DNA from: Halogeometricum limi
Lineage (GTDB): Archaea > Halobacteriota > Halobacteria > Halobacteriales > Haloferacaceae
DNA length: 64,000 bases
Reading direction: 5' to 3'
NCBI RefSeq assembly: GCF_900115785.1
Contig: NZ_FOYS01000005.1
Location: forward strand, 1 to 64,000
The translations under genes and the position numbers were made by a program. Numbering within the stretch: position 1 is the first letter of the stretch; the number at the start of each line of letters is the position of its first letter. A model generated the notes under the pieces. The model searched no databases. It saw nothing but the letters and a program-made list of their open reading frames with translations, and had not been told where the DNA came from. This document shows, one piece after another, positions 12,924 to 37,469 of the stretch.

Positions 12924-15653
12924 TCAGTACGCGCGAAGATGGGCGGCCGATTCGCTCGGCGCGTCGTCCGTCTGCGTCTCGGAGGCGTACCGACGAACGC
13001 TCCACCCGACGGCAAAGAGGAGGAGTCCGCCGAACGCGACGGTGACGGCCAGCACCGCCCAGTCGCCGACGGAGAGCGAAACGGTGCCGAACGCGGTTCG
13101 GAGCGGCGTGTACAACGTCGCGAGGTGCGCGAGAATCGAGGCGCCGACGGCGGCGGCGAGCCACGGATTCGAGCGCAGGGGCGTCGCTTTCGTCCACCGG
13201 ACGACGACGAGTTTGACGAACTCTAAGAGGATGAAGCCGGTGAACACCATCGTCATCGCGTACGGCGTCACCGTCGCCGCGCCGTCCAGCGTGTAGTACA
13301 ACAGGCCGAGCATGACCGCCGTCGCGACCACCCCGAACCCGGCGACGAGAAGCAGCATCTCTCCGTCGACGATACCGCGTTCGCGTTCTCTGGGTGGCCT
13401 GCGCATCACGTCTCCCGTCGGGTCGTTCCCGAGTGCCAGCGCCGGGAGTCCGTCCGTGAGGAGGTTTATCCACAGGAGTTGCACCGCGGGAAGGACGAGA
13501 TATCCGAAGAGTGAGGCGACGAACACGAGGAGTATCTCGGCGGCGTTCGCGCTGAGGAGGTAGGCGACGAACTTCCAGACGTTGTCGAAGATACCCCTGC
13601 CGCGCCGAATCGCCGTCCGAATCGTCGCGTAGTTGTCGTCCAAGAGGACGACGTCGCTGGCCTGCTTCGCCACGTCGGTCCCGCGAACCCCCATCGCGAT
13701 ACCCACGTCAGCGTTCTTCAACGCGGGTGCGTCGTTGACGCCGTCGCCGGTCATCGCGACGGTGTGGCCGTTCGCACGCAGTGCGCCGAGGATGCGTACT
13801 TTGTGCGCCGGTTCCGCCCGCGCGAACACGTCCACCGTCTCGACTCGCCGTCGGAGTTCGTCGTCGCTCACGGCCGATAGCTCGCTTCCGGTGAGCACTC
13901 CCGACCCGATACCGACCTGCGCCGCGATTGCCCTCGCCGTCGCGGGGTTGTCGCCGGTGATCATCTTCACGCTGATTCCGGCCCGCCGCGTCTCTGCGAT
14001 GGCGTCGGCCACCTCGGGCCGCGGCGGGTCGAGGAGTCCCTGGAGACCGACGAACACGAGATTCGTGTCGGCCTCTGCCGTCGCCTCCTCACCCGAGGCG
14101 GGCGCGTCGAGCGGTCGGTACGCGAACCCGAGGACTCGCAGTGCGTCGTCAGCCATGTCGTCCAGTGCGTCCTCGACCCGCGCCCGACGGTCCGGCGTCA
14201 ACGCGTCCGTCCCGTCGCGGGTGCGGATGCGGGTCGAACGGTCGAGGACCACGCGCGGTGCCCCTTTCACGTAGACGGCGTCGTCGTGCGTCGTCGCCAT
14301 CCGCTTTCGTTCGGCGGAGAAGGGGAGGACTCCGCGTCGTGGGGTCCCGTCTCGGAGCGACGCCACGTCGAGACCGAACTCCGCGGCGGCGTCGACGAGT
14401 GCGCGTTCCGTCGGGTCGCCGTCGGACGCGTCCGCGTCGGCGTCGTTGCAGACCGCGCCGATTTCGAAGAGAAGACGGAACCGGGAATCGTCCGTCGCGT
14501 CGCCGTCGGCCGTCGTGCCATCGTCCGTCGCGTCGCCGTCGGCCGTCGTGCCATCGTCCGTCGCCGCGCCGTGACTCGCTTCGGGCGCGCGCGTCACGTC
14601 GTCAACCCAGACGCGAGTGACGCGCATCTCGCCCTCGGTGAGCGTCCCCGTCTTGTCCGTACAGACCACGTCGACGGCACCGAGGGCTTCCACCGCCGGA
14701 AGACTCCGGACGAGGGCGTTCTCGCCGGCCATCTGTCGCACCCCGAGTGCGAGCGTGAGCGTGACCACCGCGGGGAGTCCCTCGGGAATCGCCGCGACGG
14801 CCAGCGAGATGCCGGTCAGTGCGGCCTGTACGAGCGACGTTCCGCGGAACGCGAGCAGTGGGACCACGAACGCCGAGAGGACGACGACGGCGACGCCCAG
14901 ACGCCGGCCGAGAACGTCGAGGTCACGCTGAAGCGGCGTTCGACGCTCGGGTGCGGCCAAGAGCGCCGTCGCGATTGCACCCATCTCCGTCTCCATCCCC
15001 GTCGCGACGACGAGGGCGACGGCCCGGCCGCGCGTCACGTTCGTCCCTTTGTAGGCGAGGTTCGTGCGTTCGGCGAGTATCGTCTCCGGCGGTAGCGCGT
15101 CGGTGGTCTTCTCGACGGGGACGCTCTCGCCAGTCAGCGCGGACTCGTCCACCTCGAATGCTTGCGTTTCGAGGAGGCGGCAGTCCGCCGGAACCACGTC
15201 GCCGTCGGAGAGGACGACGACGTCTCCGGGGACGAGTTCGGTCGCGTCTCGACGCGTCTCCTCGCCCTCGCGTCGGACGGTGACGACGGGCGTCGCCAAC
15301 GCTCGGAGTGCGTCGAGGCTTCGCTCCGCGCGATACTCCTGTGCGAACCCGAACAACGCGTTCGCGAGGAGGATGACGGCGATGAGCACCGCGTCGACGA
15401 CGTGTCCCACGACCAACGAGACGCCCGCGGCGACGAGGAGAACCCACACGAGCGCGTTTTGAAACTGTGCGGCGAGGAGTTCGAGCGCCCCTCGTCCGCC
15501 GTCGGTGTCGAGTTCGTTCGGTCCGACGCGCGAGAGACGCGCGCTCGCTTCCGCTTCGGCGAGTCCGTCGAGACCGGTCCCGAGTTCGTCGGCCACCGCG
15601 TCGACCGGCCGAGCGTGCCAATCGGACGTACCGGAGGCGTCGGGAGCGCTCAT
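12924..15653 (-). CDS. P-type cation-transporting ATPase, P2A (calcium pump-like) group
   Basis: This 909-residue membrane pump has an N-terminal cation ATPase domain (1-60), an actuator motif TGES (174-177), and the membrane motif PEGLP (290-294), typical of calcium or H/Na-type P2 pumps. The phosphorylation site is DKTGT with Asp333, and the hinge is GDGVNDAP. About ten helices are expected, including the C-terminal transport block. The ion is probably calcium or another cation; the PEGL motif alone does not decide. The loop after DKTGT carries an exact 33-bp duplication (14488-14553), coding [11 protein letters not shown] twice. The start lies 10 bases after the end of the formate dehydrogenase-type gene, so they may be cotranscribed. 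Confidence 0.93.
14488..14564. repeat. 33-bp exact tandem repeat inside the P-type ATPase gene
   Basis: The unit 14488-14520 is repeated exactly at 14521-14553, and a third copy starts at 14554-14564. It codes an 11-residue acidic, Thr/Gly-rich loop between the phosphorylation site and the nucleotide-binding domain. The reading frame is kept. Exact identity at DNA level implies a recent duplication and possible length variation between strains. Confidence 0.85.
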
Positions 15654-21673: not shown

Positions 21674-23014
21674 CTACTCGACGATGAACTGCCCGGCTAT
21701 CTCCTCGACTTCCGACATCGTCATCGCCTCGTCGACGGCGTTCGGGAACGGCGAGGAGACGTTGAGTTCGTTGAGGAACGCGGCGTGGCGGGCCTCGACG
21801 CTGTGGATGCCGATGGCCGCCGAGAATATCTGGTCGTTCGCGACCGTCGGCGCGGCACCCGCGTAGGCGGCGACGCCCGTGTTCTCCAGCGCCTTCGCGA
21901 CGCCGAGAAACTCCGAGGGCGTCTCGTAGCCGAAGTCGTAGGTCGCCTCTTCGACGGGCGTGCCGCCGAGGTCTTTCACCGTCTGTGTCAGGGCGTCCAC
22001 GTGGCCCGCCTCGTGGTCGCCGGCCGTCCGGAGGTGACCGGGAACCTTCATCTTCAGTTCGTCACCGTACGGCGACAGCACGTCCGCCTGCATCAGTTCG
22101 TCGTCGTTGAACTCTTCGAGGCCGTCGCGGTAGAAGGCGTTCTCCAGGTGTTCGAGCGTCAGCGCGTAGTTCAGGACGTTCAGGTCGCTCACGTCGTCTT
22201 TCTTCTTGCGGTCGTACGTGACCATCTCGCCGTCCTCCTCGCGTTCGAACGCCGCGGGGTCGACGCCACTCGTGACGAACTGTCCGGCTATCTCCAGGAC
22301 TTCGTCGACGGTTCGCGCCTCGTCGACGGCCTTCGGGAACGGCGACGCGCCGTTCACGAGGTTGAGGAAACTCGCGTGGCGGGCCTCGACGCTGTGGATG
22401 CCCGCCGCGGCGGCGAGGATGGCGTTGTTCGTCACCTTCGGCGCGGCACCCGCGTACGCGGAGACGCCGGTGTTCTCCAACGCCTGTGCCGTCGCGAGGA
22501 ACTCCGAGGGCGTCTCGTAGCCGAAGTCGTACTCGGCTTCGCCGACGGGTTCGCCGCCGAGGTCTGTCACCGTCTGCGTCAGGGCGTCCACGTGGCCCGC
22601 CTCGTGGTCGCCGACGACTTTCAGATACTCCGGGACGTCCATCCGAAGTTCCTCGTTGAACTTCGACAGCACGTCCGCCCCCATCAGTTCGTCGTCGCTG
22701 AACATCTTCAGGCCGTCGCGGTAGAAGGCGTTCTCCAGGTGTTCGAGCGTCAGCGCGTAGTTCAGGATGGGGACGTCGGGATTCGTCGGTTCGGGCGTCT
22801 CCGTCTCCGTTTCCATCTCCGTCTCGGTCATCGTCGGCGTCTCCGTCGCCGTCGGCGTCGACGACTCCGTCGCGGTCGAACCGCCGTCGCTGTTGCCTGA
22901 ACAGCCTGCGAGGCCGACGGCGGCGAGGGTCGCTCCCCCGGCGAGGATGCGGCGTCGGTCGTAGGTGCGGGGAGTCTGCTTCGTGGTGTCGGACGAGGAG
23001 TCGTTCGCGTTCAT
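21674..23014 (-). CDS. TAT lipoprotein with two tandem ferritin-like domains
   Basis: This 446-residue exported lipoprotein has a TAT signal and lipobox (DRRRILAGG, then LAGC with Cys38), followed by a Thr/Glu-rich linker. Two copies of a ferritin-like domain follow, about residues 75-245 and 260-446. Each has NYALTLEHLENAFYRDGL, GDHEAGHVDALTQTV, FGYETPSEFL and IHSVEARHA. The Glu and His in these helices form a four-helix-bundle di-metal pattern. The copies are about 70 percent alike by eye, so this is an internal duplication. Family members are called ferritin-like or DUF4439-type, with unknown activity; metal binding outside the membrane is likely. The ATG at 23014 places the TAT motif correctly. 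Confidence 0.88.
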   Translation of the reverse strand: MNANDSSSDTTKQTPRTYDRRRILAGGATLAAVGLAGCSGNSDGGSTATESSTPTATETPTMTETEMETETETPEPTNPDVPILNYALTLEHLENAFYRDGLKMFSDDELMGADVLSKFNEELRMDVPEYLKVVGDHEAGHVDALTQTVTDLGGEPVGEAEYDFGYETPSEFLATAQALENTGVSAYAGAAPKVTNNAILAAAAGIHSVEARHASFLNLVNGASPFPKAVDEARTVDEVLEIAGQFVTSGVDPAAFEREEDGEMVTYDRKKKDDVSDLNVLNYALTLEHLENAFYRDGLEEFNDDELMQADVLSPYGDELKMKVPGHLRTAGDHEAGHVDALTQTVKDLGGTPVEEATYDFGYETPSEFLGVAKALENTGVAAYAGAAPTVANDQIFSAAIGIHSVEARHAAFLNELNVSSPFPNAVDEAMTMSEVEEIAGQFIVE

Positions 23015-23128
23015 GCTCACTCTGGTCGAGGTACAGGACACGTATGAAGAAATTCCGAGTTCCGACAACATTCCGTCCAGAGTGGTCCCCGCTTCTCACC
23101 CAAATTCCCTTCACCGACGCTCGCGGGA

Positions 23129-26536: not shown

Positions 26537-26853
26537 CGGCCACACTCGGAACCGGAGACGTAACAGTGGTTCGACGCCGGTTCACTCTCCCGTCGCGTTG
26601 CCTTCCGCCTGCACCTCGATGCCGTGTGTATCGATGTCGTCTGTGTCGATGTCGCGCGTCTCGACACCGTCGCGTCTCTTCTGCCGAGACTCCAAAACCG
26701 ACGCACCTCGCTCAGTTCGGTCACTTCGGTCTGCACCGAACGCTTTGCCAACTTACTTCAGCGAGCGGAGTTTATAACACGTATGTGTTTTTTCACAGCT
26801 ATCGAACCCCGATTCGTTCTCTCCGGGAGCGTCGTCTCCGACTCGGGTGAGCC
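26537..26853. other. Intergenic region before the tetrad-repeat gene
   Basis: This 317-base region contains a short direct repeat (TGTGTATCGATGTCG/TGTGTCGATGTCG near 26624-26654), an inverted repeat with arms GTTCGGT (26715-26721) and ACCGAAC (26735-26741), and a TATA-like TTTATAAC at 26771-26778 followed by AACAC-GTAT-GTGTT. The TATA would start a transcript near 26800, giving the plus-strand gene at 26854 a leader of about 50 bases. No convincing ORF is seen. Confidence 0.5.
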
Positions 26854-27537
26854 GTGAATCCGAGTCGCGTCGACTCCATCGTCGACCTGACCTACGGGTT
26901 GCTGATCGCTGTCTCGGTCGGTCTGATCGTCGTCGCCGGGAACACCGTCGGACTGGCGTTCGGGTTCGGTGTACTGGTCTCCTACATCCTGCACGTCGTC
27001 TGGAAGATGGCCCGGTTCGACCCGAACTGGATGACCACGGCGGTCAAAGAGACGGTCGAAGAGACGGTCGAAGAGAAGGTCGGCGAGACGGTAGAGAAGA
27101 CCGTCGGAGAAACAGTGGAGAAGACAGTGGACGAGACAGTTGAAGAGAAAGTCGGCGAGACGGTGGAAAAGACGGTCGGAGAAACCGTCGAGAAGACGGT
27201 CGGTGAGACGGTCGAGAAGACAGTGGACGAGACGGTCGAAGAGAAAGTCGGCGAGACGGTAGAGAAGACCGTCGGGGAAACCGTCGAGAAAACGGTCGAA
27301 GAGACGGTAGAGAAGACGGTAGACGAGAAGGTCGGTGAGACGGTAGAGAAGACGGTCGGTGAGACGGTAGAGAAGACGGTAGAGGAAACGGTCGGCGAGA
27401 CGGTGGAGAAGACGGTCGAAGAGAAGGTCGGAGAGACGGTCGAAAAGACGCTGGAAGAACAGTCCGCGGCCGAAGACGGAGACGGCGAAGCGGACGACGA
27501 GACGCTCGGAGACGACGAGGAGAAGGCGGATGAGTAG
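26854..27537 (+). CDS. Two-helix membrane protein with long V-x-x-x tetrad repeat
   Basis: This 227-residue protein has two membrane helices (about 8-28 and 32-51), then about 35 uninterrupted tetrapeptides (residues 64-203) of the form V-[EGDK]-E/K-T/K, with Val at every fourth position, and an acidic tail. Most of it repeats VGETVEKT. No known domain is recognised. The strict tetrad puts all Val on a slowly winding stripe if helical; a right-handed coiled coil or a membrane-surface helix is possible. Val/Thr are poor helix formers, so the fold is open. The start is GTG at 26854. The gene overlaps the PiT transporter by eight bases, so the two are probably translated together and may work together. 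Confidence 0.8.
   Translation: MNPSRVDSIVDLTYGLLIAVSVGLIVVAGNTVGLAFGFGVLVSYILHVVWKMARFDPNWMTTAVKETVEETVEEKVGETVEKTVGETVEKTVDETVEEKVGETVEKTVGETVEKTVGETVEKTVDETVEEKVGETVEKTVGETVEKTVEETVEKTVDEKVGETVEKTVGETVEKTVEETVGETVEKTVEEKVGETVEKTLEEQSAAEDGDGEADDETLGDDEEKADE
27043..27462 (+). repeat. 24-bp degenerate tandem repeats coding the tetrad region
   Basis: The DNA repeats a unit of 12 or 24 bases like GTCGGCGAGACGGTAGAGAAG with changes mainly at third positions. Protein periodicity is four residues without a register break. Synonymous divergence between units suggests the protein pattern is under selection rather than being a fresh expansion. Such tracts can vary in length by recombination. Confidence 0.8.
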
Positions 27538-28708
27538 CGTCCTCCTCGTCGCCGGCGTCCTCGTCTCGATGTTCGTCGCCTACAACATCGGCGGGTCGAC
27601 GACGGGTCCGGCGTTCGGCCCGGCCGTCGGTGCCGACGCCATCTCCAAACCCGTCGCCGCGGCCCTGATGGGGGTGTTCTTCTTCGTCGGGGCGTGGACG
27701 CTCGGTCGGAACGTCGTGACGAAACTCGGAACCGAACTCGTCGTCGACACGGGGATTTTCACGCTCGAATCGTCCATCGCGGTGCTGTTTTTCATCGGCG
27801 TCGCACTGCTGGTCGGGAACGTCTTCGGCGTCCCGGCCTCGACGTCGATGACCGCGGTGGGCGCAATCGCCGGTCTCGGTCTGGCCGGCGGCGTCCTCGA
27901 CCTCGCCGTGATGGGACAGATAGTCATCTGGTGGGTCGTCTCGCCCATCATCGGCTTCTGGGTCTCGCTGGTCATCGGCCGGTACTTCTACGCGCGACTG
28001 AACGGGATGGTCGCGATGGAGCGCAGTACCGGACCGCTGTTCGACGTCGACCGGTCCGGCGTCGTCCCCATCCCGCGGGTCCACCAGACGACGAACCGTC
28101 GAGAACTGGCCGGGACGTTCACCGTCGTCGCTATCGGCTGTCTGATGGCGTTCTCGTCGGGCACCTCGAACATCGCGAACGCCGTCGCACCGCTGGTCGG
28201 CAGCGGCGAACTGGCGATGAACCCGGCCATCGCCTTCGGCGGCCTCGCCGTCACTATCGGCGCGTTCACCATCGCTCGGCGGACGCTCGAAACGATGGGC
28301 AGCGACATCACCGAACTCCCCCTGACCGCGGCTATCGTCGTCGCGTCGGTCTCCTCTACGCTGGTCGTCTTCCTCTCGGCGCTCGGCATCCCCGCGAGCT
28401 TCGTCATCATCGCGACGATGTCCATCGTCGGACTCGGGTGGGGGAGAGCGACCCGACCGATGACCGCCCCCGAAGTCGTCGCTGGTGACGGTGGACCGCG
28501 CGTGACGGTCGACGCACTCGCGGCCGACGAAGAGGGCGAGCCGTTGCCTCCCATCGGCGAGGAGGACGTCGAGGACATCCCCAGTCCGGGAGCGCTCTTC
28601 AACCCCGTGACGACCGCTCGGGTCGTCCTGATGCAGAACGTCGTCCCGGCTATCGCGACGGCCGGTGCCTACCTCACGTTCCGATTCGTCCCGATATTCG
28701 GGTTCTGA
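27530..28708 (+). CDS. PiT family inorganic phosphate transporter
   Basis: This 392-residue low-affinity phosphate permease has the two PiT signature repeats: FVAYNIGGSTTGPAFGPAVGADA near the N-terminus and FSSGTSNIANAVAPLVG near 205. About ten membrane helices are visible, with a polar loop near 315-355. Members move phosphate with H+ or Na+, often as metal-phosphate. PiT genes often sit next to a PhoU-like DUF47 gene; here that place is taken by the tetrad-repeat membrane protein, overlapping by eight bases (27530-27537). Confidence 0.92.
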   Translation: MSSVLLVAGVLVSMFVAYNIGGSTTGPAFGPAVGADAISKPVAAALMGVFFFVGAWTLGRNVVTKLGTELVVDTGIFTLESSIAVLFFIGVALLVGNVFGVPASTSMTAVGAIAGLGLAGGVLDLAVMGQIVIWWVVSPIIGFWVSLVIGRYFYARLNGMVAMERSTGPLFDVDRSGVVPIPRVHQTTNRRELAGTFTVVAIGCLMAFSSGTSNIANAVAPLVGSGELAMNPAIAFGGLAVTIGAFTIARRTLETMGSDITELPLTAAIVVASVSSTLVVFLSALGIPASFVIIATMSIVGLGWGRATRPMTAPEVVAGDGGPRVTVDALAADEEGEPLPPIGEEDVEDIPSPGALFNPVTTARVVLMQNVVPAIATAGAYLTFRFVPIFGF

Positions 28709-35967: not shown

Positions 35968-36612
35968 ATGAATAATAGAATGCGGACGTACCTCGTGACG
36001 CAATCGGACCACTCTCTCGACCGGGGGACGGCGGACGTCGTTCGCGCCGCCATCGAGGGCGGAGTCGACGTGGTACAACTCAGAGAGAAACACGCGACGG
36101 CCAGAGAACGGTACGAACTCGGGCGCGAACTCCGCGAACTCACCCGGGAGGCGGACGTCCCCCTCGTCGTCAACGACCGTCTGGACCTCGCCGTCGCCGT
36201 CGACGCCGACGGCGTCCACCTCGGGGACGACGACCTCCCCGTCTCCGTCGCCCGCGAGCAACTCGGTGACGGAGCCATCGTGGGACGGTCGGTGTCGACG
36301 GTCGAAGCCGCCCGCGAGGCCGAACGCGCCGGCGCGGACTACCTCGGCGTCGGGGCCGTCTTCGCCACGCGGACGAAAGACGTCCGCGCTGACGACGCCG
36401 AAATCGGACTCTCGCGGGTCGAAGCGATAGCCGAGGCGGTCGAGATTCCCTTCGTCGGTATCGGCGGCGTCACTTCCGAGAACGCGGGCGACGTGGTCGC
36501 CGCGGGTGCCGACGGCGTCGCAGTCGTCTCCGAGATTACCGCGGCCGACGACCCCGCGGCGGCGACGCGCCGACTGCGTGCGGCCGTCGAGGACCGGAGG
36601 GTCGAAGCGTGA
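35968..36612 (+). CDS. thiE: Thiamine phosphate synthase
   Basis: This 214-residue TIM barrel joins hydroxymethylpyrimidine diphosphate with thiazole phosphate to give thiamine phosphate. The motifs are YLVTQSD, VVQLREK, PLVVNDRLDLAV, GVHLGDDDLP, IVGRSVST and YLGVGAVFAT-KTK-like sequence. A catalytic-region Lys/Arg and DR are in place. TATA-like ACTATAC at 35956-35962 lies 22 bases before the ATG at 35980 (fifth residue), so translation may begin there rather than at 35968. It heads an operon overlapping thiM by four bases. No thi-box riboswitch is visible upstream. Confidence 0.93.
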   Translation: MNNRMRTYLVTQSDHSLDRGTADVVRAAIEGGVDVVQLREKHATARERYELGRELRELTREADVPLVVNDRLDLAVAVDADGVHLGDDDLPVSVAREQLGDGAIVGRSVSTVEAAREAERAGADYLGVGAVFATRTKDVRADDAEIGLSRVEAIAEAVEIPFVGIGGVTSENAGDVVAAGADGVAVVSEITAADDPAAATRRLRAAVEDRRVEA

Positions 36613-37469
36613 GTTCCACCCTCGATTTCGACCTCGCGGAGACGCTCTCGACTATCGAATCGGCGAGTCCGCTCGTCAACTGCGTGACGAACGCGGTGAC
36701 GGTCAACTGCGTGACGAACGCGGTGACGGTCAACGACGTGGCGAACGCGACGTTGTACTGGGGCGGCCTCCCCGTCATGTCCGACGACGAACGGGAAGTC
36801 GGCGACATGGTCGCCGGTGCGCAGGCCTGTCTGCTCAACATGGGCACCGTGAGCGAGGAGGGCGAGGCGGCGATGGTCGCCGCGGGCGAATCCGCGGGTG
36901 AGAACGGCGTCCCCCTCGTCGTCGACCCCGTCGGCGTGGGCGCGACGCCGACTCGGGACCGCGTCGCAGACCGACTCGTGACAGACCTCTCGGTCGACGT
37001 ACTCAACGGGAACTACGGCGAGATAAGCGCCATCGCGGGCGAGGACGCCGACGTTCGCGGCGTCGAATCCGTCGGCGAGTACGCCGACATCGCGGTGACG
37101 GCGATGGCCTGCGCCCGACGGACGGGGGCCGTCGTCGTCGCCTCCGGCGAGACGGACGTGGTGGCGACCGAGGACGAGGCGTTCGAGGTCCACGCCGGTC
37201 ACGAGATGATGGGGCGGTTCGTCGGAACCGGCTGTATGCTCGGCGTGACTCTCGCGACGTTCGCGGGCGCGGCGGACGACGTCGCACGGGCCGCCCTCGC
37301 CGGAACCCTCGCGTACGGACTCGCGGGCGAAGTCGCGGCGGACGGTCAGTTCGGCGACTACGCGGGTCCGGCCAGCTATCGGGTCGCGTTCCTCGACGCC
37401 ATCGCCGGCCTCGACGGCGTCGACCTACCGGACGCCGACTCCCGAATCGAACGCGTGGTGGAAGCGTAG
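36609..37469 (+). CDS. thiM: Hydroxyethylthiazole kinase with internal 9-residue duplication
   Basis: This 286-residue kinase phosphorylates 4-methyl-5-hydroxyethylthiazole for thiamine salvage. GLPVMSDDEREV, LVVDPVGVGATPTR, VLNGNYGEISAIAG and VGTGCMLG are present, the last with the catalytic-region Cys/Gly motif. Residues 23-31 (VNCVTNAVT) are repeated exactly at 32-40, where the family usually has one copy followed by VNDVAN. The extra nine residues lie in the first substrate-binding segment; the frame is preserved, so activity may be reduced or kept. The start overlaps thiE by four bases, and the stop abuts the next start codon. Confidence 0.92.
   Translation: MSSTLDFDLAETLSTIESASPLVNCVTNAVTVNCVTNAVTVNDVANATLYWGGLPVMSDDEREVGDMVAGAQACLLNMGTVSEEGEAAMVAAGESAGENGVPLVVDPVGVGATPTRDRVADRLVTDLSVDVLNGNYGEISAIAGEDADVRGVESVGEYADIAVTAMACARRTGAVVVASGETDVVATEDEAFEVHAGHEMMGRFVGTGCMLGVTLATFAGAADDVARAALAGTLAYGLAGEVAADGQFGDYAGPASYRVAFLDAIAGLDGVDLPDADSRIERVVEA
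36675..36728 (+). repeat. Exact 27-bp tandem duplication in thiM
   Basis: The unit 36675-36701 is repeated base for base at 36702-36728. It adds nine in-frame codons. Complete DNA identity, including third positions, implies a recent event or a sequencing or assembly artefact; neither can be excluded from the sequence. Confidence 0.95.

Follow-up and report, generated by a model that had tools for sequence, protein, structure and literature searches.

The stretch of DNA analysed here (the window, 64,000 nucleotides of Halogeometricum limi) encodes a small membrane protein built largely of valine-led four-residue repeats, whose gene overlaps that of a transporter annotated for phosphate. Is this repeat protein a functional partner of the transporter, which ion does that transporter carry, and what could so regular an array do beside it?

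Gene organization and domain architecture

The tetrad gene (26854..27537, + strand) begins with a GTG start and encodes a protein of 227 aa. Its N-terminal domain (residues 1–63; 26854..27042, +) contains two membrane helices followed by a conserved WKMARFDPxWMT junction; residues ~10–50 form a hydrophobic helical hairpin, which leads through WKMARFDPNWMTT into the tetrad array and then into an acidic tail. The array (27043..27462, +; TRF period 12/24/96) consists of exactly 35 consecutive, uninterrupted V-x-x-x tetrads at residues 64–203 with a period of 4.00, and the first position is V in 34 tetrads and L in one. The most frequent types are VEKT (12), VGET (11), VEEK (4) and VEET (3), and the array as a whole is strongly acidic, with 46 D/E versus 18 K/R. 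The C-terminal tail (27463..27534, +) comprises 24 aa, including 13 D/E and a single K/R. The downstream gene (27530..28708, +) encodes a PHO4/PiT-superfamily permease of 392 aa from a CysP-like branch (PF01384, 6.4e-41), and the two ORFs, 26854–27537 (+) and 27530–28708 (+), overlap by 8 nt. Both the unbroken run of tetrads after a helical hairpin and the eight-base overlap with a PiT-family gene had been described in the original prediction, and both were confirmed. Antisense and alternate-frame ORFs over the array (e.g., 27044–28084, minus strand) were rejected as spurious by-products of the repeat.

Profile searches against Pfam and NCBIfam returned no family for the tetrad protein, only compositional matches inside the array, in agreement with the earlier statement that it could be assigned to none. 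One such match, to the CdrL middle region (PF24252), reached 28.8 bits against a cut-off of 27, but its 30 residues lie entirely within the array and it was judged compositional. A sequence search of solved structures yielded ribosomal L17 as the sole match, attributable to chance, and a candidate paralogue in the same genome (L029) was likewise a chance match that lacks an array.

Distribution and conservation of the family

Of 194 haloarchaeal genomes, 133 contain a homologue of the N-terminal 72 aa. Sampling 148 genomes across the phylum gave 18 with a homologue, all haloarchaea of the same order, and none was found in that sample outside the order. Among 21 diverse sequences 16 positions are invariant, including D7, D11, Y14, G15, G33, G39, H47 and W50; the remaining invariant positions of the N-terminal domain are K51, M52, R54, D56, P57, W59, M60 and T61. 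A second, distant subfamily, marked by the motif WEKMSIYE and found in 17 of the 194 genomes, carries tetrads of its own.

Array length varies freely across the family, by whole tetrads, from a few up to 62 in one uninterrupted run. The longest array, that of L021 (G021:C1), ends in an apparent frameshift, perhaps reflecting slippage or an assembly error. Short forms of 97–127 aa retain the hairpin with only a few tetrads, and their C-terminal end is a conserved stretch of type QVESVEERVDRRPREDEVEE, which lies before or after the array in long forms of other clades. Loci L011, L013, L016, L025, L046, L050 and L058 carry this stretch, and it is absent from the window protein and its clade. Because the short forms keep the hairpin, the array is an expandable part of a two-helix protein, and because these forms are almost devoid of array, a rod cannot be the core function. 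In sequence, conservation of the tetrad protein resides in its two-helix domain.

Periodicity and selection on the array

The tetrad periodicity exceeds chance, with a Fourier peak at period 4.00 whose power was 7.4 compared with at most 1.5 in 200 shuffles. Across homologues, a period of ~4.0 was recovered in 45 of 55 rows, the remainder falling between 3.84 and 3.93 (a few rows are duplicated). The leading V (or I/L/M) of each tetrad is kept across genera in which the other residues are quite different. Differences between tetrads of the array affect 0.16, 0.18 and 0.51 of sites at codon positions 1, 2 and 3, respectively, where free mixing of third positions would give 0.50. Third positions are thus freely mixed, which indicates old tetrads maintained by selection at the protein level; the same differences rule out a fresh expansion of satellite DNA as the origin of the array.

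Association with PiT genes and mobility of the gene pair

The PiT association anticipated for other archaea holds far beyond this genome, with 82 of 141 family genes lying within 3 kb of a close PiT. Of these linked genes 50 are arranged in tandem and 30 divergently, alongside one tandem pair with PiT first and one convergent pair separated by 2.8 kb; in the tightest tandem clade the genes overlap by 8, 4 or 1 nt. When neighbours were compared at 33 loci, PiT alone recurred broadly. The WEKMSIYE subfamily also adjoins PiT in 11 of 18 loci, mostly downstream and on the same strand. Repeat proteins apart from PiT, which had been named as evidence against a coupled pair, do occur in that 59 of the 141 genes have no close PiT inside 3 kb, but nearly all of their genomes encode one. 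Some of these apparently unlinked genes adjoin a more distant PiT.

A close PiT was detected in 126 of 133 genomes with the tetrad protein versus nine of 61 without it, although these genomes are related and not independent, so that a Fisher test exaggerates the significance. Co-occurrence with the close PiT clade persists where the genes are unlinked, joint loss or gain of the two was observed inside eight genera, and in a quick PiT tree the PiTs from genomes without the tetrad protein fall mostly in one branch. On this genomic evidence, a functional link of the tetrad family to this PiT clade appears well supported.

The gene pair is also mobile. On all eight plasmids that carry the tetrad protein, a PiT lies no more than about 1 kb away. 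In Halegenticoccus and Haladaptatus, which belong to different families, the PiT genes are 97–98% identical in DNA while flanks slightly further out cannot be aligned, and one of the cassette copies lies on a plasmid. Array gaps between near-identical cassettes measure 12, 108 and 120 nt, whole tetrads in each case. These comparisons indicate that the tetrad gene and PiT move as a unit between archaeal families. Mobility raises the alternative that the two genes are neighbours without a common function, both riding mobile haloarchaeal cassettes with the repeat as a slippage-prone passenger. We regard this as very unlikely: the cassette is mobile and does occur on plasmids, but linkage recurs in several gene orders and in two subfamilies, co-occurrence survives the loss of linkage, and the codon positions bear the mark of protein-level selection.

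On plasmid pHH406 of Haloarcula hispanica (L171), a more distant PiT adjoins TrkA-like, TrkH, universal stress and APC permease genes, a neighbourhood that hints at ion-homeostasis clusters.

A conserved upstream element

Most tandem-type loci share an element, TTGCCAANNTACTTG, positioned 104–117 nt before the tetrad gene. In the window it lies at 26745..26759 (+) with one mismatch, and it may be a regulator site. With up to three mismatches it was found in 21 of 55 upstream regions versus one of 59 shuffled regions. Genome-wide it matched only two sites, equal to or below the reversed control, so a regulon under TTGCCAANNTACTTG is not supported.

Identity of the transporter and its likely anion

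Membership of the permease in the PHO4/PiT superfamily is clear from its score against PF01384 (140.9 bits, cut-off 33.7) and its alignment with the Thermotoga PiT structure 6l85 (TmPiT; E 8e-13). Its sole curated NCBIfam match of note is CysP (NF053884), at 157 bits, short of the equivalog cut-off of 400; relatives of the partner score 149–175 bits against the same model. Where 6l85 has GAND twice, the partner has GGST and GTSN (in GGSTTGPAFG and GTSNIANA), and both signature aspartates are lost, with Thr and Asn in their places. The GAND motif was absent from every homologue examined: the window's PiT clade carries GG(S/A)TTGPAFG with SGTSN, and its sister clades GGS(S/N)TGVAFG with AGASN. 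In human PiT2, phosphate transport depends critically on the GAND aspartates (PMC3126765), and their replacement has been an argument for sulfate, not phosphate, carriage by CysP-type PiTs, with Gly and Asn taking their places in Bacillus subtilis CysP (PMC5840216). The partner thus resembles the CysP branch (PiT, PHO4, TC 2.A.20) in its superfamily and in the C-terminal Asp-to-Asn replacement. It differs in having Thr rather than Gly at the N-terminal signature, in a score below that of an equivalog, and in its surroundings, no sulfur-assimilation genes being found at the window locus. Elsewhere in the same genome (L097; G000:C8:64000–82000), two tandem PiT-family genes from sister clades of the partner lie beside two O-acetylhomoserine sulfhydrylase genes, both of which pass the cut-off for O-acetylhomoserine aminocarboxypropyltransferase, and a PiT beside an O-acetylhomoserine sulfhydrylase gene also occurs in genomes G003, G009 and G011.

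With neither GAND aspartate retained, and with CysP as its NCBIfam match, albeit below cut-off, the partner is unlikely to be the canonical phosphate transporter that the original prediction had taken it for. Its sequence makes sulfate or another oxyanion a likelier substrate than phosphate. That the permease is a true phosphate carrier despite its altered motifs, with the tetrad protein as a haloarchaeal phosphate-uptake accessory, is a real possibility although we lean against it, and it would be compatible with an accessory role. The PF01384 match is over cut-off, public records name these genes inorganic phosphate transporter, and a survey of haloarchaeal genomes counts PHO4 proteins, annotated partly as anion permease, as phosphate carriers (PMC4230888). 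However, no clade member examined retains either of the two aspartates found to be critical in human PiT2 (PMC3126765), and the best curated model is CysP.

The same considerations bear on whether the tetrad protein occupies the place of a DUF47 partner, as had been proposed. No profile match to DUF47/PhoU_div (PF01865) was found in the tetrad protein, and none of 20 relatives gave a DUF47 match above the Pfam cut-off, compared with positives in six of 14 control genomes. The proposed absence of DUF47 therefore stands for these 20 relatives, but because the partner is probably not a canonical phosphate PiT, a replacement of DUF47 by the tetrad protein is not supported. A PiT with a DUF47/PhoU-like partner constitutes the orfA-pit type. 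The present locus is similar in that a small gene directly adjoins the PiT gene and co-expression is probable; it is unlike that type in that the small protein is a membrane hairpin with repeats and the PiT lacks the phosphate signature.

Structure and topology of the array

With K51 and R54 as positive residues following the second membrane helix, both the N and C termini would lie inside, which suggests that the array is cytoplasmic. An AlphaFold2 monomer model (24 sequences) had a mean pLDDT of 55. Helices at 3–28 and 30–55 form the hairpin at pLDDT of about 60–70, and the array was modelled at low confidence as helices 62–127 and 136–208, falling below 50 in places. Foldseek matched no chain to this model, as expected given its low confidence.

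An undistorted helix has 3.63 residues per turn, and coiled coils are bounded at ~3.33 and, by expectation, near 3.9, with 3.8 the most extreme known (PMC4786415). At 4.00 the array lies outside this range, and its valine spacing is too wide for any coiled coil known so far. By simple geometry, the right-handed pitch needed is about 59 Å at period 4.0 versus 122 Å at 3.8. The arrays are like right-handed coiled coils (hendecad 3.67, pentadecad 3.75, YadA 3.8) in having a hydrophobic stripe, a period above 3.63 and predicted helix, but they keep a period of 4.0 over at least 140 residues, beyond the expected limit of ~3.9 (PMC4786415). A straight helix lying on a flat membrane would have its valine stripe rotate off the surface after only a few tetrads, which makes a membrane-parallel rod unlikely. 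Of the two forms first proposed for this array, the strict period accordingly fits poorly with the membrane-parallel rod, and also with a right-handed coiled coil of the ordinary kind. Arrays that instead build an extended helical assembly at strict period 4.0, with a very tight right-handed supercoil (~59 Å) or a new packing, and that serve a haloarchaeal anion permease as its membrane-anchored rod, are in our judgment improbable.

The array may otherwise be an unstructured or single-helix acidic spacer that forms no oligomer and serves as a tether or entropic brush, for which composition and regular spacing suffice while the hairpin alone acts on the permease. We consider this rather unlikely. 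Array length differs widely, with single runs of about 20 to 62 tetrads, and short forms occur; the period exceeds both the expected coiled-coil limit and the most extreme example (PMC4786415); and the low pLDDT of the array and its excess of D/E over K/R are equally in keeping with a spacer. Yet a mere spacer has no need of a V (or I/L/M) in each tetrad, a feature retained by 34 of the 35 tetrads here and by genera whose other residues are quite different.

A possible role beside the permease

At about even probability, we propose that the tetrad protein is a small membrane-anchored accessory of CysP-like PiT-family permeases particular to haloarchaea, and that its array is a cytoplasmic rod or tether. 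The N-terminal hairpin would sit in the membrane beside the permease, and the array would form a long helical rod or tether reaching into the cytoplasm, where it may self-associate or space permeases. The effect might be a tuned amount, clustering or activity of the transporter. Of the new kind of PiT accessory or scaffold first suggested, the link to PiT is well supported and the phosphate PiT is not; the scaffold role is one that we infer. YtxH and ElaB/DUF883 are membrane-anchored amphipathic-helix proteins with a short membrane anchor and a long repetitive helix, an architecture that the tetrad protein shares. It is distinguished from them by an anchor that matches no family over cut-off, by two membrane helices, by its strict tetrads and by its linkage to PiT.

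Accessory genes adjoining permeases are often regulators, and the tetrad protein could be a sensor or regulator of the permease, responding for example to ionic strength or acting as a DUF47-like gate, and not a scaffold. The relatives lack DUF47, a charged array could respond to salt, and the conserved element ahead of the gene suggests that expression of the tandem operon is regulated. However, no sensory domain was detectable in the tetrad protein by profile searches and the upstream pattern does not rise above its control genome-wide, so we judge a sensor or regulator unlikely.

An accessory of this kind would supply a partner for a large, vaguely annotated class of haloarchaeal 'phosphate' transporters, and its gene would be a means of finding out genetically which anion is transported. 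The arrays also offer a natural sequence series, with periods of 3.84 to 4.00 and lengths of 20 to 62 tetrads, against which the stated upper limit of coiled-coil periodicity can be tested directly.

Other features in the window

Repeats were also observed in other ORFs of the window. A P-type cation ATPase-like ORF (12924–15653, −) contains a 33-bp repeat at 14487–14572 that encodes an acidic insert. A secreted-looking protein at 21674–23071 (−) has two similar halves, with LNYALTLEHLENAFYRDGL... occurring twice, and apparently carries a duplicated ferritin-like domain. The ORF at 36609–37469 (+) reads by eye like hydroxyethylthiazole kinase (ThiM) and contains an in-frame 27-bp tandem duplication (repeat at 36675–36749), which places NCVTNAVTV twice in an N-terminal conserved motif.
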